DNA from: Terriglobia bacterium
GTDB taxonomy: Bacteria; Acidobacteriota; Terriglobia; UBA7540
Direction: 5' to 3'
DNA length: 33,873 nucleotides
NCBI GenBank assembly: GCA_020072655.1
Contig: JAIQGH010000009.1
Coordinates: 1-33,873, forward strand
Positions 4,711 through 33,873 of the stretch are shown here, in pieces. The position numbers were made by a program, and so were the translations under genes. A model generated the notes under the pieces. The model worked only from the letters and a program-made list of their open reading frames with translations, was not told where the DNA came from and searched no databases. Position 1 is the stretch's first letter, and every line of letters starts with the position of its first letter.

Positions 4711-5622
4711 TCAAGGGCGGATGCCGGCCATGGTCAATCCGGCCTGTGGATTAACCGGAGTCCCTCTGTTGGGAAAGGCCGCGCTTGAAAACCACACCAG
4801 GCGTGGCCACCCGAGGAGGGCCGCGAAACCCATGCCGCCGCATCCCCAACAGCCCGGCCAGGCCAAGGGAATTATCTTTAGAACCCTCACCTCTCCCCAA
4901 CCCTTGATACGCGGTTTATTCGCTAGCCGCAAGAAAGAATCCAGGCGCGGTTTGACCTGGAACGCGACCATGTACTCCCAGAGGAACCCTCCTGCCAACT
5001 GGTCGTTTCTGACCTTAAAGGCGGCAAATCCGTGTCCCGAGCTCCAGTCAAAGTCCGCAGCAAAATCGCGAGCGCAGAGATCCGACAGGTTGGACGCGGG
5101 TGTGGAAAGAGGCGGATTGAACCATCTGGCGGCGCACAACGAGAGAGGCACGCCCAGTGCCAAGCCGACCATAACCGCTCTGAGATAGAACCAGGACTTC
5201 CATAGGCGCAGTCTGGAATGAGCCGTCCCGCGAGTCCGAGAGGGTCCGCCAATTACCAGCCGAAGGTAAGCGATGGTCAGGAGGATGCAGCCTGCCAAGA
5301 AGATAGCCCAAGCCGGGACATCGAGCAAACGGGACCACCAGACCACCCCCACGGCGTGAAGCAACCAGGGCAGCAAAATACTACCCGCCATCGTGAGAAC
5401 CCCCGCTAGAGCCAAGCCTAGAAGGTCAACCGTCGCAGCCACGCCGACGCAACCGGACCATACGAGCAAGGTCCCCGCGCATAGGCATATTACGGCCGGT
5501 CGGTCCGGCGAGTCGATGAAAGGCGAGGGTACCTTCGGTCCGACCGTCTGCATGATGCCAACTATCAAGACAGCGAGCCCGGTGGCCAATACAATCCTGG
5601 AAATCCTAATGAGAATCCCCAT
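4711..5622 (-). CDS. Predicted integral membrane protein, unknown
   Basis: This is a 303-residue protein with four or five hydrophobic helices in its first ~165 residues: IVLATGLAVLIVGIM, AVICLCAGTLLVWSG, LGLALAGVLTMAGSILLPWLL, WAIFLAGCILLTIAYLRLVI and YLRAVMVGLALGVPLSL. A soluble stretch with several cysteines and a short hydrophobic tail follow. The membrane pattern appears only in this frame, which is the main argument that it is real; codon third positions are less GC-biased than in neighbouring genes. The ribosome binding site before ATG 5622 is weak. The family is not recognised and no function can be assigned. Confidence 0.58.
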   Translation of the reverse strand: MGILIRISRIVLATGLAVLIVGIMQTVGPKVPSPFIDSPDRPAVICLCAGTLLVWSGCVGVAATVDLLGLALAGVLTMAGSILLPWLLHAVGVVWWSRLLDVPAWAIFLAGCILLTIAYLRLVIGGPSRTRGTAHSRLRLWKSWFYLRAVMVGLALGVPLSLCAARWFNPPLSTPASNLSDLCARDFAADFDWSSGHGFAAFKVRNDQLAGGFLWEYMVAFQVKPRLDSFLRLANKPRIKGWGEVRVLKIIPLAWPGCWGCGGMGFAALLGWPRLVWFSSAAFPNRGTPVNPQAGLTMAGIRP

Positions 5623-5777
5623 CCTGAAGCACCCACTGAGCTACACGCCAACCCACCGCGTACATCGCGCTTCCTGCAATCTGTGCAATCGGTATAGTAC
5701 CGCCGCGTTTCGCTTCGCGATATACAACTACTCGGGCAACGATGCAAGTGACAGGAGTGGGGAAAGTGGGCTCAAAA

Positions 5778-5819
5778 TGTCAGGTACCGAGGGCCGGGGC
5801 GTCTGAGGTACGCCTGACA
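5778..5819. other. Imperfect inverted repeat in a 338-base gap
   Basis: TGTCAGGTACC is followed, after about 18 bases, by GGTACGCCTGACA. The arms pair with a two-base bulge. It lies in the gap 5623-5960, downstream of the glycine-zipper gene on the minus strand. It could be a terminator stem (no T-run is seen) or the end of a small mobile repeat. The rest of the gap holds only the low-complexity repeat noted below. Confidence 0.4.
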
Positions 5820-5869
5820 GGAGGCAGGTGACTGGGACAGGGAAAGCAGAAGTGAAGGGGGAGAGGATG

Positions 5870-5947
5870 AAGGGTCAACGATTCAGGATCAAGGACCAGG
5901 GTTTAAGGATTTTGGGTTCTGAGTTCTGGCTTCTGACTTCTGGATTC
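5870..5947. repeat. Low-complexity degenerate repeat (GGATTC/GACTTCTGG type)
   Basis: Words such as GATTCAGGATCAAGG, GGTTCTGAGTTCTGG and CTTCTGACTTCTGGATTC run to just before the stop codon of the next gene. The right part is the reverse complement of the CAGAAGTCAGAA words seen at 12385-12625, so the family occurs in both orientations. Confidence 0.6.
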
Positions 5948-5960
5948 TCCGCGGTGCTCG

Positions 5961-6713
5961 TCACTTCTCGCTGTTTTCGGGCGTGCTAGCTGGTTGGTCA
6001 TCGGGACGGTGGGGCAAGCCCGGGTTTGAGGCATCCACAGCGCGGTTGACCACGAAGGTCAATTGCGAGCCGGAAAGGAGAATGATTTCCTTCTGCTTCT
6101 TAAAGAGGTTGTAGAGTAAGGCCGTGCCGGCGCCGATGCCAGCGCCGTAGCCAATACTCGTGCCGATGCCCGGTCCGCCACAGTTGCCGTAGTACTCGCA
6201 CTCAATCGCTGAGCCCATGCCGACGGTCGCGCCGGCCCCCGCCCCCATGGCGCCCGCGATGGCGGCATCCTTCGCGGCGTCTTTCTTGCTCTTGCCGCAA
6301 CCCTGGATGGTGCCTTCGTCATCGCTGGGCGAGTTGCCGCAGACGCCGCCCTTGCTGTCTTCGAGTGTGCTGGAAAGCCGGATCGTCTGGTCGTCGGGCG
6401 TCATGATGGAATCCAGCACCACGCGCATCTGCGCCTTGGCCTTGATGCGTCCCGCGGGCTTCAAGTAGGCCACATGACCAGTCACCAGGCTTCCCTGGGG
6501 CACAATGGTCTCCGTGCCGGACATGACGTCTTGGGCCACCAGGCCCGTAAAGGTGTCGCCCGGCTTATTCGTTTTGGAGGTGATCGTGGTGTTCAACTTG
6601 ACGTGCAGGATAGTGCCCGGGGGAATCGTGAGCGCTTCGGCAGCGTAGGCGCTCGGAATCGAGAGTACGACTGCCAACGCCAGTGCCGCCAAGGTGGGAA
6701 TTGTCCGTTTCAT
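5961..6713 (-). CDS. Exported glycine-zipper protein
   Basis: Starting at ATG 6713, the protein has a clear signal peptide (KRTIPTLAALALAVVLS, then PSAYAAEA) and about 250 residues in total. The mature N-terminal part (LTIPPGTILHVKLNT, then KPGDTFTGLVAQDV) is a beta-rich domain like those of many acidobacterial secreted proteins. A glycine-zipper region follows (AAIAGAMGAGAGATVGMG and IGTSIGYGAGIGAGTALL), typical of membrane-inserting or outer-membrane-associated segments. Several cysteines (VCGNS, GCGK, IECEYYGNCGG) could form disulphides. An in-frame ATG 12 codons upstream would only lengthen the region before the signal peptide. The likely location is periplasm or outer membrane; its function is unknown. 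Confidence 0.78.
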   Translation of the reverse strand: MKRTIPTLAALALAVVLSIPSAYAAEALTIPPGTILHVKLNTTITSKTNKPGDTFTGLVAQDVMSGTETIVPQGSLVTGHVAYLKPAGRIKAKAQMRVVLDSIMTPDDQTIRLSSTLEDSKGGVCGNSPSDDEGTIQGCGKSKKDAAKDAAIAGAMGAGAGATVGMGSAIECEYYGNCGGPGIGTSIGYGAGIGAGTALLYNLFKKQKEIILLSGSQLTFVVNRAVDASNPGLPHRPDDQPASTPENSEK

Positions 6714-6909: not shown

Positions 6910-7461
6910 CTATTTCTTCGCCGGCCCAGAGGCGGGAGCCGCGGGCGCAGGGGGCGGAACGAAAGTGAGCGCCTGCTTCACGGTATCCGGCAGTTTATCC
7001 GCGTTGGCCAGCATGAGGCTGACCTGCCAGAGCTGCTCCTCCGATAGCGCTGCCTGAGAACTCGGCATTCCGGAGAGCCGAATGCCGTTCTTGGCCACCC
7101 AGAAGGTCTCACCTGGCGGATCATCGGTCACCATCGAATTGGGCTCGAGAAGCTGCGGGGGAGAAGGCGACATCGCTCTGACCAGCGGCGATTCCGGCCG
7201 GTTGAGCAGGCCGTGGCAGCCCCCGCAATGGTGCCGGTAGACCTCGGCACCCGCCAGATAGGTGGCTTCATTGGCCTGAAGAGGCACGCTGGCAGGCATC
7301 TCTTTCTCCGCCCGGGCGTGGATCGCCGTCATGGCAAGGAACCGCTCGAGCGGCAGCGGCGGATCGGACACCCTCACCGGCGCGCGCCCGGAAAGGAAGT
7401 AAACGTACAACGCCACAGGAACCAGAACTATCCCCACGATCAGTCCGGTGATGAATTTCAT
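6910..7461 (-). CDS. Membrane-anchored cytochrome c
   Basis: This 183-residue protein has an N-terminal anchor (FITGLIVGIVLVPVALYVYFL) and one cytochrome c domain with the haem site CGGCH at about residues 79-83. A late Met in LSGMPSS is the probable sixth ligand, and the tail is rich in Pro and Ala. It should carry electrons on the outer face of the cytoplasmic membrane. ATG 7461 is chosen because AGGAGG lies about 13 bases upstream and the anchor starts right after it. It is 62 bases downstream of the alpha-galactosidase gene and could be cotranscribed with it, although no functional link is obvious. Confidence 0.9.
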   Translation of the reverse strand: MKFITGLIVGIVLVPVALYVYFLSGRAPVRVSDPPLPLERFLAMTAIHARAEKEMPASVPLQANEATYLAGAEVYRHHCGGCHGLLNRPESPLVRAMSPSPPQLLEPNSMVTDDPPGETFWVAKNGIRLSGMPSSQAALSEEQLWQVSLMLANADKLPDTVKQALTFVPPPAPAAPASGPAKK

Positions 7462-7523
7462 CGCGATTGTCCACACCTCCTTTGAAAATTTCCGGACGCT
7501 TCTCCACACTACTTGCGCCGCGT

Positions 7524-8675
7524 CTATTCGCGGACGACTTTCACCATCACCACAGCGTGCGCCGGCACGTTGGCGCGGAGCACTCCATCGGCGGAGAGCC
7601 TCAGATCCTGATGTTTCCACAGATCGCGAACCTGTTTGGCGGAACGGAGCGGCACGGAAATCTCTTTCGGCGTGTCGCTCCGGTTAAGCAGCCCGTAGGC
7701 GGCGCTGTGCCCACTCAGTTCCTTCCGCCAAACCTCGGTATCCCCGTAATCGCGCGCCTTCACGGCTTGGCGGCCGAGGGGATCCTGATCCACCGCGATC
7801 ACCTCGGGATTGGTCAGGATCTCTCGGATCTCGGGCGGCATGGTGCGCAGATCGTTGCCGGCCATCAAGGGTGCGGCCAGCATACACCACAGGCTGAAAT
7901 GCGCGCGGCTTTCCTCCAGCGAGAGTCCGGGATTGCCGACTTCCAGCATGTCTGGATCGTTCCAGTGGCCGGGCCCCGCGAACCTCCCGAGGTCCACCTC
8001 CAGATCCAGAATTTGCATCACCCCCAACCCCGCGAGACCCGTGCAATCCCAGCAGTCGGTGATATCCTCCGTCGTACGCCACAAGTTGCCGATGTCGGCG
8101 CCCCACTTCCACGGCTCCTCCAATCCCCAATCGCACAGGCTGAAAACGATCGGGCGGCCGGCGGCCTTGAGCGCGTCGCGCATGATGGCGTAAGAAGATT
8201 TCACTTCCTGCGTGCTGTGGTTGCACCAATCGTATTTAAGGTAGTCCACGCCCCAGGCGGCGTACTGCCGGGCGTCCTGGAATTCATAGCCGCGGCTGCC
8301 GGGCCGGTTTTGGCACGTCCCGGTGCCCGCGTCGGAATATATTCCAAACTTCAGACCTTTGGAGTGGATGTAGTCCCCCAGGGCCTTTATTCCGGAAGGA
8401 AACCGCTCCGGGTCAGGCACGATGTTGCCTTGATCGTCGCGCCTCACCTGCCAGCAGTCGTCGATCACGACGTACTGGTAGCCGGCGTCTTTCATGCCGC
8501 TTGTGACCATGGCGTCCGCCATCTCTTTGATGAGCTTTTCGCTCACGTCACAACCGAAGCGGTTCCAACTGTTCCACCCCAGGGGCGGAGTGAGCGCCAT
8601 CCCGTTCTCCAGCGCCCGCGCCGGCACCACCACGAAAAACAGCAAGGTCAGAATGGACAGGATGAATCGCTTCAT
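7524..8675 (-). CDS. Secreted GH27 alpha-galactosidase
   Basis: This 383-residue glycoside hydrolase of family 27 removes terminal alpha-linked galactose from oligo- and polysaccharides. It has a signal peptide (KRFILSILTLLFFVVVPARA) and then the family start TPPLGWNSWNRFGCD. The catalytic nucleophile is Asp in YLKYDWCN (about 149), and the acid/base Asp lies in WNDPDMLEVGN (about 242). A beta-sandwich C-terminal domain ends in MVKVVRE. ATG 8675 is used because a purine-rich site (GGGGGGAA) precedes it and the signal peptide starts there; a longer in-frame ORF upstream looks non-coding. With the GH3 enzyme at 17717 it suggests growth on plant material. Confidence 0.94.
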   Translation of the reverse strand: MKRFILSILTLLFFVVVPARALENGMALTPPLGWNSWNRFGCDVSEKLIKEMADAMVTSGMKDAGYQYVVIDDCWQVRRDDQGNIVPDPERFPSGIKALGDYIHSKGLKFGIYSDAGTGTCQNRPGSRGYEFQDARQYAAWGVDYLKYDWCNHSTQEVKSSYAIMRDALKAAGRPIVFSLCDWGLEEPWKWGADIGNLWRTTEDITDCWDCTGLAGLGVMQILDLEVDLGRFAGPGHWNDPDMLEVGNPGLSLEESRAHFSLWCMLAAPLMAGNDLRTMPPEIREILTNPEVIAVDQDPLGRQAVKARDYGDTEVWRKELSGHSAAYGLLNRSDTPKEISVPLRSAKQVRDLWKHQDLRLSADGVLRANVPAHAVVMVKVVRE

Positions 8676-8941
8676 TGGTGTTTCCCCCCTTTGTCCCGCA
8701 GTTATGCTTTCTGCCCGCCCCAAAGACAGGCCCGTTCCGCAGGGCAACATGGGTCCCACTCTCCCGAGCGCGCGGCTTCTTGGGCCCCTCGCCACCCGTT
8801 TTCCCCGACGACCCTGGGGGCGCCATGTGGAACGAGGATAGCATCAATTGCCTGGGGGCGCGTAGCGAGACTTGGCGTGGAAGTCGGCGGTCGCTCGCTG
8901 CGGATAAAGGAAGGCACGCCCCCATGCAGTTCATCGGCGCA

Positions 8942-10273
8942 CTACCGCTTCTTCAAGACCAGTCTCACTCCGGGACGCGGGCGAAGCGTCAGGGAGGGAT
9001 TCACGTGGACGCGGTAGCCGGGCGCGGGGCGGAACTGAAATCTCCGCACGATCGCGGGCACGAGCAGCGCCAGCTCGGTGAGTGCAAAGGTGTTGCCGAT
9101 GCACACGCGCGGCCCCACGCTGAACGGGAAATAGGCGCATCGCGGCAGGCGCTTGGCGAGGCCGTCGGCCCAGCGGTCGGGGACAAATTCCTCCGGCCGC
9201 TCGAAGTAGCGGGGGTCGCGGTGGACCGACCACGGGAAGATCGCGAGCGACGCGCCCGCCGGCACCGTGTAGCCACCGATCTGGCAATCCTTCACGGCCT
9301 GCCGGACGATCCCGTAAGCGGGCGGGTAGAGGCGCAGCGATTCCTTGATGACCGCGTCCACCAGGCGCAGTTGTGGGAGGTCTTCGAGCGTGGGCGCGCG
9401 CTCGCCCAGGACGCCGCGCACTTCCTTGTAAACCCTCTCTTGCACTTCGGGATGGTGGGAGAGCAGATGCCAGGTCCAAGCCAGCGCCAGGGCCGTGGTT
9501 TCGTGCCCGGTAAAAAACAGCGTCATCATTTCATCGCGAAGCTGGCGTTCGCTCAGGCGGCTGCCATCCTCGTCCTGGACGCGCAGCAGCATCGAAAGGA
9601 TGTCGCCGGAGTCGTGGCCATTCGAGCGGCGGGCGCGGATCACTCGTTCCAACAGATCATCCAGGCGCCGAATGGCGCGGCGATAGCGAATATTGCCGGG
9701 CGTCGGCAGCCATTCCGGAAGCAGGTAAAGCCCGAACCGCTCGTCGAACTGCTCGAAGAAGACGCGCAACGCGGCACTGGCCTGCGCCGTCTCCGACGCG
9801 AGGTCGTTGCCAAAGAGGACCTGGGCGATGATTTCCATGGTCAGCCGGATCATGTCGTCAAAGACGTCGCGCGTCTCGCCGTCCTGCCAGGCACCGAGCA
9901 GGCGCTCGGCGTGGTCCACCATGATGCGGCTGTAAGCGGCTACCCGCTCGTGATGAAACGACGGCTGGAGGAGGCGTCGCTGGCGGACCCAGGCCTTGCC
10001 GTCGGCCGTGAGTAGGCCGTCGCCGAAGAGGGCCTGACTTTCACGCAGGAAGACGGACTTCACGAAGTTGCTGTAATTCGTGAGGAGAACCTCTTCGATA
10101 TCGCGCGGATGGCTGAGGATGAAGACGGGATGGTTGACGACGCGCAGGAAAACCACGTCGCCGTATTCGCGCACCAGGAACTTAAGGTAATCGAGTTCGT
10201 CTCTGCGGATTTCCGGCAAGACGCCCAGCAAGAAGTGGCCCTTGGGCCCAGGCGGCAAGGTCGACGTCGGCAA
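8942..10273 (-). CDS. Cytochrome P450
   Basis: A full-length P450 monooxygenase of about 443 residues. The I-helix oxygen-binding motif is FFTGHETTA, the K-helix ExxR is ESLR, and the haem-ligand loop is FSVGPRVCIGNTFA (Cys about 391). The N-terminus (LPPGPKGHFLLG) lacks a membrane anchor, so it is a soluble bacterial enzyme. Overall it resembles the CYP4/CYP102-like bacterial group acting on lipophilic substrates, but the substrate cannot be read from sequence. The start is a TTG: GGGAGG lies 7 bases before the TTG at 10273, while the TTG two codons earlier (10279) is too close to that site. No ferredoxin or reductase gene is adjacent. Confidence 0.94.
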   Translation of the reverse strand: MPTSTLPPGPKGHFLLGVLPEIRRDELDYLKFLVREYGDVVFLRVVNHPVFILSHPRDIEEVLLTNYSNFVKSVFLRESQALFGDGLLTADGKAWVRQRRLLQPSFHHERVAAYSRIMVDHAERLLGAWQDGETRDVFDDMIRLTMEIIAQVLFGNDLASETAQASAALRVFFEQFDERFGLYLLPEWLPTPGNIRYRRAIRRLDDLLERVIRARRSNGHDSGDILSMLLRVQDEDGSRLSERQLRDEMMTLFFTGHETTALALAWTWHLLSHHPEVQERVYKEVRGVLGERAPTLEDLPQLRLVDAVIKESLRLYPPAYGIVRQAVKDCQIGGYTVPAGASLAIFPWSVHRDPRYFERPEEFVPDRWADGLAKRLPRCAYFPFSVGPRVCIGNTFALTELALLVPAIVRRFQFRPAPGYRVHVNPSLTLRPRPGVRLVLKKR

Positions 10274-10523
10274 GCACAAACCTCCCTGAGAGCATTCGCG
10301 TGCACCGCAACACCCGGTCCGCCTTCATGGCCTACGCGGAAAACCGGCTAAGGTCGCAGTTGGATGTCTATCGATACGAGAGCCCAAAGCCCCAGCGCGG
10401 CTCACCTCTCAGTCAATCGGAACCCACCGAGTCGCGCCACCCTGCCGTATATCCCTATGATGCTAAGAAATGCCGTGGGGAAATATGAAGAGTAGGCGCG
10501 CCGCTCGCCGCGCCGCGTAGGTT

Positions 10524-10571
10524 GTAGGGGAGCCCTCCGGGCTCCCGCGGGAGGGCGAAGCCCTCCCCTAC
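10524..10571. repeat. Intergenic hairpin element, GTAGGGGAG...CTCCCCTAC ends
   Basis: This is a 48-base palindromic element with terminal GTAGGGGAG/CTCCCCTAC, an inner GAGCCCTCC-GGGCTC hairpin and a GGGAGGGCGAAGCCCTCCC hairpin. It belongs to the same general class as the element at 1284. The gap 10280-10720 holds only this element, the repeat at 10631 and no gene that I can support. Confidence 0.65.
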
Positions 10572-10630
10572 CACCCCTCGCAGCCGTCAAGCCGTCATCG
10601 GGCGATGTCTGCGCCAGCCCCCCGGCAGTT

Positions 10631-10660
10631 GTCATTCTGAGCGCGCAGCGAAGAATCTGC
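10631..10660. repeat. Dispersed GTCATTCTGAGCG repeat
   Basis: GTCATTCTGAGCGCGCAGCG followed by AAGAATCTGC matches a motif I recall as a common intergenic repeat in acidobacterial and some other soil genomes. Only one copy is present here. It is used as a weak taxonomic hint. Confidence 0.45.
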
Positions 10661-10720
10661 AGTTTCCTGTCCCGCCATCACCCAAGCCGCGGACTTGCAC
10701 ACCAAGTCCGTGCTACCCTG

Positions 10721-11254
10721 CTAAGGGAGCCTTACACTAAGCCCGGAGTTCGGTCCGGGAGGCAGGCCGAGTGCGGGCTCTACCCCCGGATGTGACCTAA
10801 GATCCAGCAACAGTTGGGCCGCGTCAATCCTCCTACCGATTTTTGTTTGAGATTCCGGGCGCGGGCTCGCCACTTCTTTAGCGCGATAGATTTCAACCTC
10901 CTTAACCCCCTCGGCGAGAGCCCTTCGACAAAGCCCACGAGCATAAAATCTGTTGAATTCTCCTTCAGCCAACGTTTCCGGGGCGGTCACCGGTACGCGC
11001 ACAATCGTAATCCGTCCGCTCCGAGTCCTCCTTTCTTCTGACTGTCGGATGCGCCCGCTGCCGCGCAGCACGGTTGCGAGGGTTACCTCATTGCCTGACC
11101 TGCTGGCGGTTCTGAGGGCGTCCGGGTAGTCCCGCAGGCCGGCCTCGCTGAGGCGAGGACTAAGGTACAGGTTATTATTAGCTAGGTCTTGTTCGACCTC
11201 ATCGAGCATGAACCGCCGAGTTTGGTCGTCCAGGTCTGCAAAATGGAAAGGCAT
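10721..11254 (-). CDS. Conserved unknown, second gene of a defence-like pair
   Basis: This is a 177-residue soluble protein. GGAGGAG five bases before ATG 11254 fixes the start. Regions that look conserved are DYPDALRTASRSGNE, the segment VPVTAPETLAEGEFNRFY, ARGLCRRALAEGV, EIYRAKEV with PRPESQTKIG, and the C-terminal ALGLPPGPNSGLSVRL. I recall similar proteins as conserved hypotheticals of patchy distribution, with no known function. It lies 69 bases downstream of the deoxyribosyltransferase-like gene on the same strand, and the two probably form an operon. The mixed charge and lack of signal peptide suggest a cytoplasmic protein. Confidence 0.78.
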   Translation of the reverse strand: MPFHFADLDDQTRRFMLDEVEQDLANNNLYLSPRLSEAGLRDYPDALRTASRSGNEVTLATVLRGSGRIRQSEERRTRSGRITIVRVPVTAPETLAEGEFNRFYARGLCRRALAEGVKEVEIYRAKEVASPRPESQTKIGRRIDAAQLLLDLRSHPGVEPALGLPPGPNSGLSVRLP

Positions 11255-11323
11255 TGTCACTCCTCCAGCGCTGGTCGGCAGGCACACAGGATCTCTCCTC
11301 TGCTAATCTGCCATGTCGCCCAG

Positions 11324-12253
11324 CTACCCAGGTTTCTGGAACTGGCCAGGCCCTTCACCCTCAATAGCAAGGATCCGGTTGTACAAGCGCGTCTTGGCGT
11401 CTTCGGGAGATTCATAGGCAATGAAATTGAATTGGCGCACGTCGAAATGAAGCTTGTCCTCGTCCAATTCATTCTTGTCGCACATCCAGATTACCGTTCG
11501 GCCCAGGCCTAACATCATGCCGGCCTCGAAATAGACGCCGTAGCGTTGACCAGTGAAGTCGGCAACCATGAACCGCGAACGTCTAATCTGCGCGATGATT
11601 TCGTCATCAATTCGGTTTACATGCTCGTGTCGGTCAATTCGGAGGGCGTGGTAACCAGCTTTGCTAATCGCTGGCTCGATTGCGTTGTTATACAGCGTGT
11701 TCATGCTTTCATGGAACCACATGGCCACGAAGGCTCTGTTCGACGCACGCCCGGCCTTCCTGATTTCCTCTAAGCGTTTCCACCCGTCTAAAGTAACGAG
11801 GAAACCATCATTTGTCCCGGTGATGTACCCGAGCTCGGTCAATCCAGACCTAAGGAAGGTCACTTCATCTGCATCCCTTGCGATGAGCAGTGGATAGTCC
11901 CTTTTCGCACTGAATGTCGTATAGTCGCCTAACCCGGCGGTCATCTGGGCGATTAGGACCAGGAGGTTGTCAAGCTTCTCCGGAGGTGTGTATTCAGGGA
12001 GTGTGCGTATGAGTTCCTCGATATTGGTGCTCAGAATCGTGGGCGCTTCAGGTCCTGTCGGCACCCTTCTGCAATAAGCTGAGAGGAGTGGCTTTTGTTT
12101 TGGTTCCAAGATACACAAGGCCTGTTCAGTAATGCTAAATAGGCCGCATCGCTCGCACTGGACACATATCGCATCGCGACCGGTACGATCCCTGCCTATG
12201 TGGAATGGCACAGCGTCACAGAGCGGACAGGTCTTCATTATTACAGCGGGCAT
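11324..12253 (-). CDS. Zinc ribbon fused to nucleoside-deoxyribosyltransferase-like domain
   Basis: The protein has 309 residues. The N-terminus carries a four-cysteine zinc ribbon (CPLC about 8-11, CVQC-ERC about 31-37). A helical middle section (about 60-165) contains LLIARDADEVTFLRSGL. The C-terminal domain (about 170-300) has FVAMWFHESMN, HVNRIDDEIIAQIRRSRFMVADF, the segment GQRYGVYFEAGMMLGLG and LHFDVRQFNFI. This is the Rossmann-like nucleoside 2-deoxyribosyltransferase/TIR-related fold, and the Glu of YFEAG sits where the family has its catalytic Glu. Such domains hydrolyse or transfer glycosidic bonds of nucleosides or NAD-like molecules and often serve as effectors in anti-phage systems; that role here is inference. 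GGGGGAG precedes ATG 12253; ATG 12238 is an alternative start. Confidence 0.82.
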   Translation of the reverse strand: MPAVIMKTCPLCDAVPFHIGRDRTGRDAICVQCERCGLFSITEQALCILEPKQKPLLSAYCRRVPTGPEAPTILSTNIEELIRTLPEYTPPEKLDNLLVLIAQMTAGLGDYTTFSAKRDYPLLIARDADEVTFLRSGLTELGYITGTNDGFLVTLDGWKRLEEIRKAGRASNRAFVAMWFHESMNTLYNNAIEPAISKAGYHALRIDRHEHVNRIDDEIIAQIRRSRFMVADFTGQRYGVYFEAGMMLGLGRTVIWMCDKNELDEDKLHFDVRQFNFIAYESPEDAKTRLYNRILAIEGEGPGQFQKPG

Positions 12254-29249: not shown

Positions 29250-29879
29250 TCAATCCACCTCCGCCGTTCGCTCAAATCGTCTATAAAGGCGCGCCGCCTT
29301 GGCGCACTTCGCCCGCATGCGTTTGCTGGACCCTGACCATTTGAAGTCTTTGCCGGTTCTCAGGTCCATGCACCAAATGGTTTGCGAAGGTTTTCGGAAT
29401 CTCTGTTGGACTATGATCGAGAGTAACTCTAGGTACGCTTTCAAGTCCTTGGTCTTCCACTTTGCCGCAAGAAGGAATACGTACCTTTCCTTGTCGTTCT
29501 CGTCGATAACCTGGAAGTGCGGTGCACCAGTAAGTTGAAGCCCCTCGAAGTTAACTGACTTCTGGGCATCTCTTAACAAATTGCGCTGAAACCTCCTGAT
29601 CCGCGGATAGAAGAGAGTCTCGAATTTATCGAAAGCATCTTCATTTGCCTTCGCCACCTCCGGGCCGCGGGATCCCCACATTGATAGGGCTCGGGAACGC
29701 ATTATCCTTACGATTGTGTCCCGGCCAGCCCCCTTGGCTTGGCAATAGGAGACCACTGCTTCACGGAGGGGCTGATACCAGCCGAATGCATATTCCTTGC
29801 CTTCCTCGATTGAATTGAGTAGGTCTTCCCAGCCTACAGGCTGGGCGTGAACCAGACGACTCAGGGGATAAATGTGCAT
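29250..29879 (-). CDS. Unknown 209-aa protein, last gene of the kinase-PurZ operon
   Basis: AAGGAG precedes ATG 29879, and 209 residues follow. The protein begins MHIYPLSRLVHAQPVGWEDL. The middle reads GAPHFQVIDENDKERYVFLL, then AAKWKTKDLKAYLELLSIIV. Near the end is TIWCMDLRTGKDFKW, and the tail is very basic. The alternation of a beta-hairpin carrying D/E, a following K and a long helix is loosely like a PD-(D/E)xK nuclease core, but no clean motif is present, so this is only a suggestion. The basic tail would suit nucleic-acid binding. It is the last gene of the island operon, 33 bases after the small 53-aa ORF. The family is not recognised. Confidence 0.7.
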   Translation of the reverse strand: MHIYPLSRLVHAQPVGWEDLLNSIEEGKEYAFGWYQPLREAVVSYCQAKGAGRDTIVRIMRSRALSMWGSRGPEVAKANEDAFDKFETLFYPRIRRFQRNLLRDAQKSVNFEGLQLTGAPHFQVIDENDKERYVFLLAAKWKTKDLKAYLELLSIIVQQRFRKPSQTIWCMDLRTGKDFKWSGSSKRMRAKCAKAARLYRRFERTAEVD

Positions 29880-30756: not shown

Positions 30757-31655
30757 TCACCAGGCCCTCCGGTCTATAATGCTGCGGAACTCAAAGCGTG
30801 TCGAAATAAGTGATACCGGCGCGGCCCCGACCCGTTCCACTTCCTCGATGAATTGCTTTGTCTCCGGGTCCAATTGTTCATACCGCCTCGCCTTTTCGTT
30901 TTTGCGATTGAGATAATCCACAAACGTCAGGGCCAGGTCGGTGGGCCCGTTCAAGGCGGCTGCCCGCTTCAGTAATGCCCAATCAAATTCACCAACACGC
31001 CTTTTCCGATGGGTGGTGGTGGTCTTTTCCGTTTTCTCCAATTGGTTAAGCGGAATACGCGAACGTTTCGCGACGACGTCCCAATTGATTTCGAGATCCA
31101 TCGGGCCTGAGGTTGCCTTTTGAGGACTTTCCACCCGAATGGGATACGTCCTGATCACCATAACGACTTTTCGTACTCGCCTGGGGGCCACCCCCACCTC
31201 CGACAAGCACCCGGCGACACTTGTGTCTCGCGACGTGACATGTGGATAACTGCCGTGATAGAGACTCAGACCAGCACCTTGCGTTCCCTCAATGAGAATT
31301 TTCTTCCCGGCTCTGTAAGCTTCCTCCAGCAGTTTCCACGTTTCCCGTATGAAGGGTCTGAGATCCTTCACATCTCGCGCAAGCGTCTCTTTGCCAACTC
31401 GGCCCTTGATTCTACGTGCAGTCGCAAATCCAACCCCCTGTCCTGTAGAGCCAATTTGCTCGACCAACGGGGCTTCGCCCTTTATGTCTCCGGGGCTAAT
31501 AATCATTGCCTGAGGATCGATGGACAGCCGTTCAGAGTCGACGCCATACTTAGCTATTTCTTCCATCAATTTCCTCGCGTTTAGAACGCACCCTGGAGCT
31601 AAACGCAGCGTCATAAGTAATTGCGCATGCTGAAGATTTGTGGTTTCATGTAGTC

Positions 31656-32180
31656 ATGAGACCACTGCAAATCGCTGATGCCAGGACGATGATTTTGGGA
31701 CTGCAAGACGAGATTCGCCGTTCGGAAGAATCTCGGTATGATCACCGGCTCCACGGGGTGCTGTTGGTGGCCCAGGGAGCGACCTGTCCAGAGGTCAGCC
31801 GCTTGCTCGGAGACGCCCCTCGCACGGTGGAGTACTGGGTTCGACGGTTTGAAGCCAAGGGTCTGGCCGGGCTGACCGAAGGGCAACGCTCTGGGCGCCC
31901 CCCGCGTCTGCGCGATGCGCAATTGCGGGAGGTGGACCGGGCCCTGCGCCAGACCCCTCGCGACCTGGGGTTGACGGGCACGCTGTGGGATGGGAAAACG
32001 CTGAGCGCCTGGATCGAGCAACGCTTCCAGGTCCACTTGAGGGTGCGTCAATGCCAGCGTCTGTTCCGGCAGCGGGGCTTTCGACTGCGCAAGCCCCGCC
32101 CGCTGATCGCCCATGCGGATTGGGAACGGCAGAAGGCGCATAAAAAAACTCCAGGGGCTAAGCCTCGACCCCACGGTTGA
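31656..32180 (+). CDS. IS630 transposase, N-terminal frame (helix-turn-helix)
   Basis: This frame carries the DNA-binding part of the transposase. It has RLHGVLLVAQGATCPEVSRL, then LGDAPRTVEYWVRRFEAKGL, a homeodomain-like helix-turn-helix, followed by GLTEGQRSGRPPRL and the winged-helix region LSAWIEQRFQVHLRVRQCQR. It ends just after a run of seven A (32142-32148), where the frame must change to reach the catalytic part. ATG 31656 is chosen as start; ATG 31638 is also in frame and neither has a clear ribosome binding site. Confidence 0.85.
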   Translation: MRPLQIADARTMILGLQDEIRRSEESRYDHRLHGVLLVAQGATCPEVSRLLGDAPRTVEYWVRRFEAKGLAGLTEGQRSGRPPRLRDAQLREVDRALRQTPRDLGLTGTLWDGKTLSAWIEQRFQVHLRVRQCQRLFRQRGFRLRKPRPLIAHADWERQKAHKKTPGAKPRPHG

Positions 32181-32700
32181 TCTCTGGGCCATGGACGAAG
32201 TGCATTTTCAACAACACGGTTCGCGCTGTCGGATGTGGGTCCCGCCCGAAACCAAGGACCCCGTGCTGCTTCACCCGCCCACTCGGAAGAGCGTGGGCTA
32301 TTATGGAGCGGTCCGCCTGCGCGACGGCCAATTCTTCTTCCGGCGTGAGGCGGGCAAGTTCAACGCCCTGACCTGCTGGGAGTTCTTGAAGGAGCTTTGT
32401 GCCCTCAGCACTCGCACGCGTCGACAGGTGGTGGTGATTGCCGACAACGCCCGCTATCACCACGCCCGACTGCACCGGGACTGGAGGCAGCAAAAGGCTG
32501 AACGCTTCAGCGTGGACTTCTTGCCGCCCTACAGTCCGGAGCTGAACCCCACGGAGCGCATCTGGAAACTCACGCGTCGCCTTTGTGTCCACAACCGTTA
32601 CTTTCCCAGCTTGGGCGATGTCGCTCTTGCAGTCGAAACCGAGTTCGTGAACTGGACTGAACCGAATGATACGCTGCGCCGACTATGCGCAATTACTTAA
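32142..32700 (+). CDS. IS630 transposase, catalytic DDE frame
   Basis: The catalytic half is read in the +1 frame relative to the first ORF. The triad is visible: WAMDEVHFQQHG (first Asp), VVIADNARYHHA (second Asp) and PPYSPELNPTERIWK (Glu). The frame has its own ATG at 32113, but fusion to the helix-turn-helix half by slippage on the A7 run (32142-32148), losing one A or shifting +1, gives a normal ~350-residue transposase. The TAA stop lies inside the right inverted repeat. Confidence 0.88.
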
Positions 32701-33532
32701 GACGCTGCGTTTAGTATCAGATGCGCAGAGGGGTTTCGAGACGTCCCTGCAGGGAGTTGATGGTGAGTGTATGGGTCGGGCTCCTGAAACACCTTGTGAC
32801 CCGCGTTCGGACCGCCCACCCGCACCAGGACGTCGTACTCGCGCGAAAGATACGAAGTAATATGTCCTTTCCCTTCGCTGCCGTATTGCCCACCAACGAC
32901 GACATCCACGCGTTTGTCATAGGCTCGCGAAAACAGGCCGAGATGCGTAGCAGCTCTGACAAGAACCGCTTGCTGCAAGCATCGGCTGGTGTCAATTACG
33001 AAATCTGCGGGGTCTTCCAGCTCCTTGACTCGAGCCTCGGTTTTGTCCTTTTGGGCCTCTGAGAACGACACCAGCTCAGCAGAGCCCGCTGACGGTCGTC
33101 GCTTATAGCGCTCCTCGAGTACTTTGTCAGGTGCTTTTAAGTGGATGTGAACGACACTGAAGGAATATGCCTGTCGTATCGCTCTGATCTGGTCAGGAAT
33201 CCGCACCGCGTCCACCACGAGCCTCGCGTCGGGGCCGGCCGAACCAAGGTCCCTTATGGCGCGCGCCAAAGCATCCCTCACCCAGCGCCCTCTGGTCTCA
33301 TGGTCAAGAGTATTGCCAAACTTCTGCATTTCGAGGCGATCGGACTCAATCTCCCTGCCGAGCCTCTCGCGAGCGAGGGTTCGAATCACGTCCTTGGTTT
33401 TCACCACTTGAAAACCGAATTGGTCTTTCAGCAGATTTGAGAGGGTTGACTTTCCCGACCGAATCTTCCCCGAAAGCAACACAATCTGCTTTGGCACGGA
33501 ATACACCTCTCACCAGCGGTCTGGGCTCCCTA

Positions 33533-33672
33533 CTAAATTGGCAAGGTTGATTGCCGCGCAGTTGCTCTTTCCGCTGACGACGGCAAATCGTAGACGGTCA
33601 CCTCAATGCCCCTGTGGCAGAGTGTCTCCTCGACGATCTCGCTCACAATGTCCCATGACCCGCCAGCTTCGC
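33533..33672 (-). pseudogene. C-terminal remnant of a gene truncated by the IS3 element
   Basis: Between the IS3 end and the kinase-PurZ gene one minus-strand frame reads EAGGSWDIVSEIVEETLC, HRGIEVTVYDLP, then SSAERATARQSTLPI and a stop at 33533. The heptad-like helix and beta-strand alternation look like real protein, and its stop lies 35 bases before the kinase start. It is probably the end of an upstream operon gene cut off by the IS3. The family is not recognisable from about 45 residues. Confidence 0.5.
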
Positions 33673-33873
33673 TGACCTGCCCCCTTCTGTGGTCCAATCA
33701 TAATGTGAGTTCCGGGGTTGAAATCAACTCCTTAGTCAGGAAGGCGAGGGGCGTGGGGGGAGACGCCCCTCGCGCGGCGGCCTGGGCCGCGAACTCCTCG
33801 GGCGTCTGATACCCCAGCGCGCTATGCGGGCGCGCCTGGTTGTAATCCCTCCGCCACATCTCGATCTTCTCTC
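33673..33873 (-). mobile_element. IS3-family insertion sequence, partial
   Basis: The transposase end and a terminal sequence starting TGACCTGCCCCCTTCTGTGG, with TG at the outer edge as in IS3 elements, mark one terminus. The rest lies beyond the right edge of the window. Confidence 0.78.
33698..33873 (-). CDS. IS3-family transposase OrfB, C-terminal part
   Basis: The frame entering from the right edge reads EKIEMWRRDYNQARPHSALG, then YQTPEEFAAQ, the characteristic end of the IS3-group integrase-like OrfB (DYN..RPHSALGY.TP.EFA). About 25 less conserved residues and a TGA at 33698-33700 follow. The DDE catalytic residues lie outside the window. Confidence 0.9.
   Translation of the reverse strand, partial: EKIEMWRRDYNQARPHSALGYQTPEEFAAQAAARGASPPTPLAFLTKELISTPELTL

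Follow-up and report, generated by a model that had tools for sequence, protein, structure and literature searches.

Synthesis of the DNA base 2-aminoadenine (Z) is described as a phage trait. PurZ of phiVC8 and S-2L (6FM1, 7ODX) carries the motif GSTGKG, a Ser pocket residue, a PIRV motif followed by an SG insert, and Gln/Asn at the donor site (ATP), and it is encoded without a kinase in a phage Z-cluster with DatZ and MazZ. PurZ0 of Arthrobacter/Gordonia/Streptomyces phages (7VF6) carries GSEAKG, with Ser in place of the PurA Asp, the PIRV and SG insert, and Asp at the donor site; it also lacks a kinase domain, and its partners are DutZ/DmtZ. The short archaeal PurA (Pyrococcus horikoshii, 5K7X) is a housekeeping, unfused enzyme with the catalytic Asp (GDEGKG), the GTP-site Asp and no SG insert. 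DarTG systems pair a DarT toxin with an antitoxin bearing a macrodomain, while anti-phage dCTP deaminase/dGTPase systems act by nucleotide depletion. Here, we analyzed a 33,873-nucleotide stretch of a Terriglobia bacterium contig (JAIQGH010000009.1; hereafter, the window), which contains a (d)NMP kinase fused to a PurA-superfamily domain, adjacent to a DUF7002 gene (Table 1). Compared with PurZ0 and PurZ, the fusion shares the Ser and the larger clade but has an added kinase domain and the motif GSEGKG; compared with the archaeal PurA, it lacks the catalytic Asp. Compared with DarTG, DUF7002 is predicted to have the DarT fold but is a separate Pfam family, the macrodomain of the partner is fused to an IrrE peptidase, and a kinase-PurZ enzyme lies between them. 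As in the dCTP deaminase/dGTPase systems, a kinase-like P-loop domain is fused to a nucleotide enzyme, and the kinase half matched the PADLOC dCTPase model (2.7e-10), although the second domain and its chemistry are different and an ADP-ribosyltransferase (ART) is the partner. Overall, many unrelated bacteria carry a small cassette of this kind, joining an enzyme that resembles PurZ with a likely DNA-modifying toxin and its likely antidote, and the copy in the window has been broken by two insertion elements.

Table 1. Features of the kinase-PurZ locus in the window
Position	Strand	Feature	Evidence
30757-33506	-	Kinase-PurZ-like fusion gene, interrupted; start GTG 33506 or in-frame GTG at 33497	Frames 32697-33506 (269 aa) and 30757-31614 (285 aa)
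32919-33506	-	P-loop (d)NMP kinase domain (about residues 1-195 of the fusion)	Pfam AAA_18 1.7e-8; phrog_139 dNMP kinase 8.2e-14; kinase half of the modelled homologue matches NMP kinases, best 3lw7 Z 19.1
32714-32918	-	Start of the PurZ-like domain (GGQYGSEGKG, GGPNAGHKV), up to the insertion	PF00709 1.5e-14; PHROG 1211 (phage PurZ) 1.8e-17; NCBIfam PurZ NF038379 1.7e-16
31602-32711	+	IS630-type element inside the PurZ-like domain; transposase frames 31638-32180 and 32113-32700	Inverted ends of 30 bp, 31599-31628/32685-32714, 97% identical; TA at both junctions (31600-31601, 32712-32713); HTH_32 and DDE_3 hits; only full copy in this assembly
30757-31601	-	Rest of the PurZ-like domain (STGQGVG, EGTQGAG, RTYPIRV-ESPQKATSGP, LTFVDYL)	PF00709 8.3e-39; PHROG 1211 2.2e-50; NF038379 6e-39; tree and residues
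30079-30756	-	DUF7002 protein, 225 aa, intact; start codon abuts the stop of the fusion; predicted DarT-like ADP-ribosyltransferase fold, inferred toxin/effector	PF22531 3.2e-67; AlphaFold2 pLDDT 97.5; best seven structural matches are DarT entries, Z 8.7-10.9
33533-33670	-	3' remnant of the IrrE-macrodomain gene (AGGSWDIVSEIVEETLCHRGIEVTVYDLP); the rest is lost to the second element/contig end	Aligns to the C-terminus of the upstream partner, closest to that of locus L078; too short for a Pfam hit; boundary with the element approximate
33671-33873	-	End of a second insertion element (integrase core fragment), running off the contig	PF13683 rve_3 9.4e-10
29250-29879		Frame of 209 aa downstream of DUF7002	No family match; no counterpart seen beside the cassette elsewhere

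The two pieces are one gene interrupted by the IS630-type element, and the gene is therefore not intact. The fusion is not chance or a frame artefact, as intact fusions of about 520-600 aa occur in dozens of other genomes. A misassembled housekeeping PurA was also rejected, since the genome holds a separate, full-length PurA. Given that both the fusion and the macrodomain gene are disrupted, the cassette cannot work in this genome unless the inserts excise. The preliminary description, which proposed from the sequence alone that a kinase-PurZ fusion acting on a deoxynucleotide lies next to an ART-like gene without DatZ or MazZ nearby, was supported in its main points: the PurZ-like domain did not cluster inside canonical PurA, DUF7002 was modelled as a DarT-type ART, and neither DatZ nor MazZ is in the window. 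Several points require correction, however: the phage PurZ motif is GSTGKG (GSEAKG in PurZ0), not GSEGKG; the phosphate donor is predicted to be GTP, as in PurA; the gene, for which the start at 33497 had been chosen, is a pseudogene; and the remnant of the upstream macrodomain partner had been missed.

Searches of plasmids and genomes first yielded intact fusions in rhizobia and a close relative in the phylum of the window. We then scanned 84,980 species genomes with an alignment of the domain and found 406 bacterial and archaeal contigs encoding a relative. The best 80, at 49% identity or more over the domain, came from Alpha-, Beta- and Gammaproteobacteria, Actinomycetota, Acidobacteriota, Myxococcota, Verrucomicrobiota, Planctomycetota, Chloroflexota, Synergistota and archaeal MAGs, and showed a conserved cassette. 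The distribution was sporadic; among 41 genomes related to the host, 3 had DUF7002. An archaeal MAG (locus L066) carried two fusion genes (7440-9047 and 9820-11424) facing each other around one DUF7002 gene, with one IrrE-macro gene. In locus L016 (about 5500-6300; same contig as locus L095), the kinase half was missing and an array of palindromic repeats (GATTGATATGGGGCCATATCAATC type) lay directly upstream of the PurZ-like frame. Two loci in the class of the window and one Sinorhizobium plasmid (L011 7095-9856; L017 5272-9550; L018 6023-10117) held a second arrangement, in which an unfused GSEGKG PurZ-like enzyme accompanies a dCTP-deaminase-like protein with a membrane-type C-terminus; the two loci of the window's class also have a separate kinase and an exonuclease-DUF429 protein.

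The broken gene was not rejoined, and intact relatives were used for folding and trees. In a maximum-likelihood tree of 59 sequences, the fusions, the dCTP-deaminase-linked set, phage PurZ and phage PurZ0 separated from long PurA, short archaeal PurA and a deazapurine-cluster PurA at 100/99, although the order among the four Ser-bearing groups was not resolved. The fusions formed their own clade (100/100), outside that of PurZ0, and the window piece paired with an Acidobacteriaceae protein. The closest homologue (locus L052) missed the NCBIfam cut-offs for both PurZ (211.6 of 300 bits) and PurA (TIGR00184, 214 of 395.55; NF003295, 295 of 368). We mapped the pocket residues published for cyanophage S-2L PurZ (PMC8342488) onto the alignment. 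All 82 intact fusions tested had Ser at S23, Asn-Ala-Gly-His at 49-52, Gln at 190, Arg-Val at 240-241, Phe at 306, and Asp at 308 (S-2L Q308), where PurZ has Gln/Asn and PurA has Asp; the column for S-2L R146 did not align reliably. In every fusion sequence inspected at this position, the Arg-Val was followed by an insert ending in SG, as in PurZ/PurZ0, which PurA lacks and which has been tied to deoxyribose choice (PMC8342488). We therefore infer a dGMP-specific acceptor site with a GTP donor site, although the 2-amino pocket and the deoxy-specificity rest on residues alone. PurZ0 probably also uses GTP, but PMC12884076 gives the two donors in an order that conflicts with its own introduction. 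Canonical PurA was present in all 10 fusion-bearing genomes checked, and a third PurA-superfamily protein, GDEGKG but otherwise divergent, was noted in Amycolatopsis. The AlphaFold2 model of an intact fusion (pLDDT 92.9) matched P. horikoshii PurA (Z 45.0, 38% identity, the best solved match), PurZ0 (Z 40.4) and phiVC8 PurZ (Z 40.4), as well as adenylate-kinase-type NMP kinases.

Profile searches over 84 fusion loci found DUF7002 in 83, and chance co-location was rejected. Two DUF7002 genes on plasmids (Streptomyces goshikiensis and Caballeronia insecticola) had no cassette partners, so DUF7002 can occur alone. The closest structural matches to the DUF7002 model were E. coli DarT1 (8baq, Z 10.9, 162 aligned, 3.2 A) and Thermosipho DarTG (7omu, Z 10.0), followed by Thermus and M. 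tuberculosis DarT, with Tpt1/KptA and other ARTs behind; E189 is suggested as the catalytic glutamate. Sequence models of DarT did not recognize it: Pfam gave only DUF7002, PADLOC gave no hit at the thresholds used, and the PDB profile hit to DarT1 had an E-value of only 0.23. The IrrE-macro gene was found (strong hits) in 41 loci and a ~470 aa unknown protein in 34, never both, while an HD phosphatase was found in 32 of the 34 and none of the 41. The IrrE-macro protein of the relatives matched macrodomains (2fg1, 1.8e-43; ALC1, 2.9e-21; TARG1, 5e-11; DarG, 6.4e-6) and IrrE (2.7e-11), and, in PADLOC, CapP (3.8e-22), RmrA and DarG (8.9e-7). The ~470 aa partner of the Rhizobiales-type cassette had no Pfam, PHROG or convincing PDB match, although by eye its end recalls ATP-grasp proteins. 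DatZ proper was absent, the HD gene being closer to dNMP phosphatases, and seven loci carried a MazG-like pyrophosphatase. Four actinobacterial loci carried an extra PurB above the TIGR00928 cut-off, close to the cassette; each of their genomes had at least one other, about 30%-identical lyase of the family, in two cases near canonical purA. PurB near Bradyrhizobium fusions was not counted, as it is of the E. coli type, lies some kilobases away with other genes between, and is probably housekeeping. Several Beta/Gamma loci carried a second free-standing kinase, and a metallophosphoesterase plus a ~310 aa gene of unknown function recurred beside several Rhizobiales cassettes (6 loci each; e.g., L010 9660-12037, L013 3966-6421 and L015 4600-6962).

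A single-protein scan of viral contigs with the C-terminal piece from the window found nothing, whereas a profile scan found eleven viral contigs (L175-L185; ten after removing a duplicate) carrying the fusion. Three also had DUF7002 (two with IrrE-macro) and nested among bacterial copies. Seven lacked DUF7002 in the stretch analyzed; five of those records had a family-A DNA polymerase match (four over the cut-off), a setting like that of Z-phages, one had a nucleoside-deoxyribosyltransferase-like gene next door, and several branched near the base of the fusion clade, although this was a quick tree and the branch order is tentative. These are possible undescribed Z-DNA phages, and the pattern fits use of the same enzyme for Z-DNA in phages and its recruitment into, or exchange with, cellular cassettes. 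Regarding the genomic context, 127 flanking proteins matched 127 PADLOC families, headed by type I and II methyltransferases, specificity subunits and Gabija GajA, while 123 proteins from arbitrary places in seven genomes (most of them carrying the fusion) matched 2. As PADLOC counts families, many of them redundant, rather than independent systems, this shows enrichment without a rate. Plasmid neighbours included SIR2, AbiE, SbcCD and UvrD genes.

The window thus most likely holds a degraded copy of a mobile cassette consisting of an IrrE-macrodomain protein, a (d)NMP kinase-PurZ0-like fusion, and a DUF7002 DarT-like ART. From homology, residues and partners, and without measured activity, we infer that the fusion joins aspartate to dGMP, using GTP, to give N6-succino-2-amino-dAMP (dSMP), that host or cassette PurB turns this into dZMP, and that the fused kinase phosphorylates dZMP towards dZTP. 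From the domains, we infer that DUF7002 is an ADP-ribosylating effector and that the IrrE-macro protein is a sensor-protease plus ADP-ribosyl hydrolase that restrains or reverses the ART. Together they would act as a DarTG-like toxin-antitoxin or anti-phage system. Whether making 2-aminoadenine nucleotides is part of the attack (dGMP drain and poisonous dZTP), marks the DNA the ART acts on, or provides the substrate of the ART is speculative; the S-2L Z-cluster is toxic to E. coli (PMC8342488), but nothing shows that Z is in the DNA of these hosts, nor what DUF7002 modifies. We regard the dGMP-type chemistry as very likely and a role in conflict as probable, and hold the reading as a whole with moderate confidence.

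Other readings appear less likely. Low-level 2-aminoadenine in host DNA might protect it, or its newly made strands, from the ART, which would attack unmarked invading DNA in a restriction-modification logic. The fused kinase, extra PurB and MazG-like partners do point to a triphosphate for DNA, the HD phosphatase could lower dAMP, and the ART is an almost obligate partner; however, the toxicity of the Z-cluster in E. coli, the absence of any Z-selective polymerase seen in the bacterial cassettes, and the high substitution that protection would need make this unlikely. It is similarly doubtful that the kinase-PurZ enzyme is only a sensor or antidote of the ART, binding or processing a nucleotide such as dGMP from phage-driven host DNA breakdown, or handling an ADP-ribosylated guanine nucleotide, without making Z in quantity. 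In the IrrE-macro type it sits between the macro and ART genes, and DarT1, the nearest solved ART, attaches ADP-ribose to the guanine 2-amino group (PMC11543638), a group that 2-aminoadenine also carries, which is a coincidence and nothing more at present. Yet nearly all catalytic pocket residues compared are kept, and the extra PurB and MazG-like genes fit synthesis, not sensing.

A purine nucleoside natural product pathway, or an ordinary salvage variant of PurA, is very unlikely. A Rhizobium leguminosarum plasmid cluster (L012 4200-15521) with folE, queC/D/E-like genes, a PurA-like (GDEAKG) and PurB-like pair and an IMP dehydrogenase-like gene probably represents a deazapurine nucleoside or DNA-modification pathway, but its PurA-like protein keeps the Asp and falls outside the Ser clade, no transport or tailoring genes recur beside the fusions, and the flanks are defence-rich. 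A leftover of Z-DNA prophages without a host role is about as improbable: fusions without DUF7002 do occur in phage contigs with DNA polymerase A, some near the base of the fusion clade, but DUF7002 is present in nearly all bacterial loci and the cassette recurs intact across many phyla. A more far-reaching possibility, less improbable than these readings but raised only tentatively, is that cellular bacteria and archaea make 2-aminoadenine deoxynucleotides on purpose, as one arm of an innate anti-phage system whose other arm is the DarT-like ART, with the Z nucleotide incorporated into, or withheld from, replicating DNA and thereby controlling what the ART modifies.

Each part of the cassette is of a known kind, and judged by the ART-macro pair alone it might be classed with DarTG; the combination, however, was not found described, nor was DUF7002, in the open literature searched, which leaves out most subscription papers and preprints. 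A recent PurZ survey, which sampled up to two PurA per prokaryotic phylum, reported 147 phage sequences and only four archaeal ones (Ser/Gly) in the PurZ group (PMC12884076). The present finding also corrects a standing annotation, since the annotated plasmid copies inspected are named 'adenylosuccinate synthetase', and makes the origin of PurZ, whether cellular, phage, or exchanged between them, directly testable. A Ser-bearing, kinase-fused PurZ lineage in many cellular genomes, tied almost without exception to a protein with a predicted DarT fold, would move the Z pathway into cellular life and link unusual-base nucleotides to ADP-ribosylation toxins.
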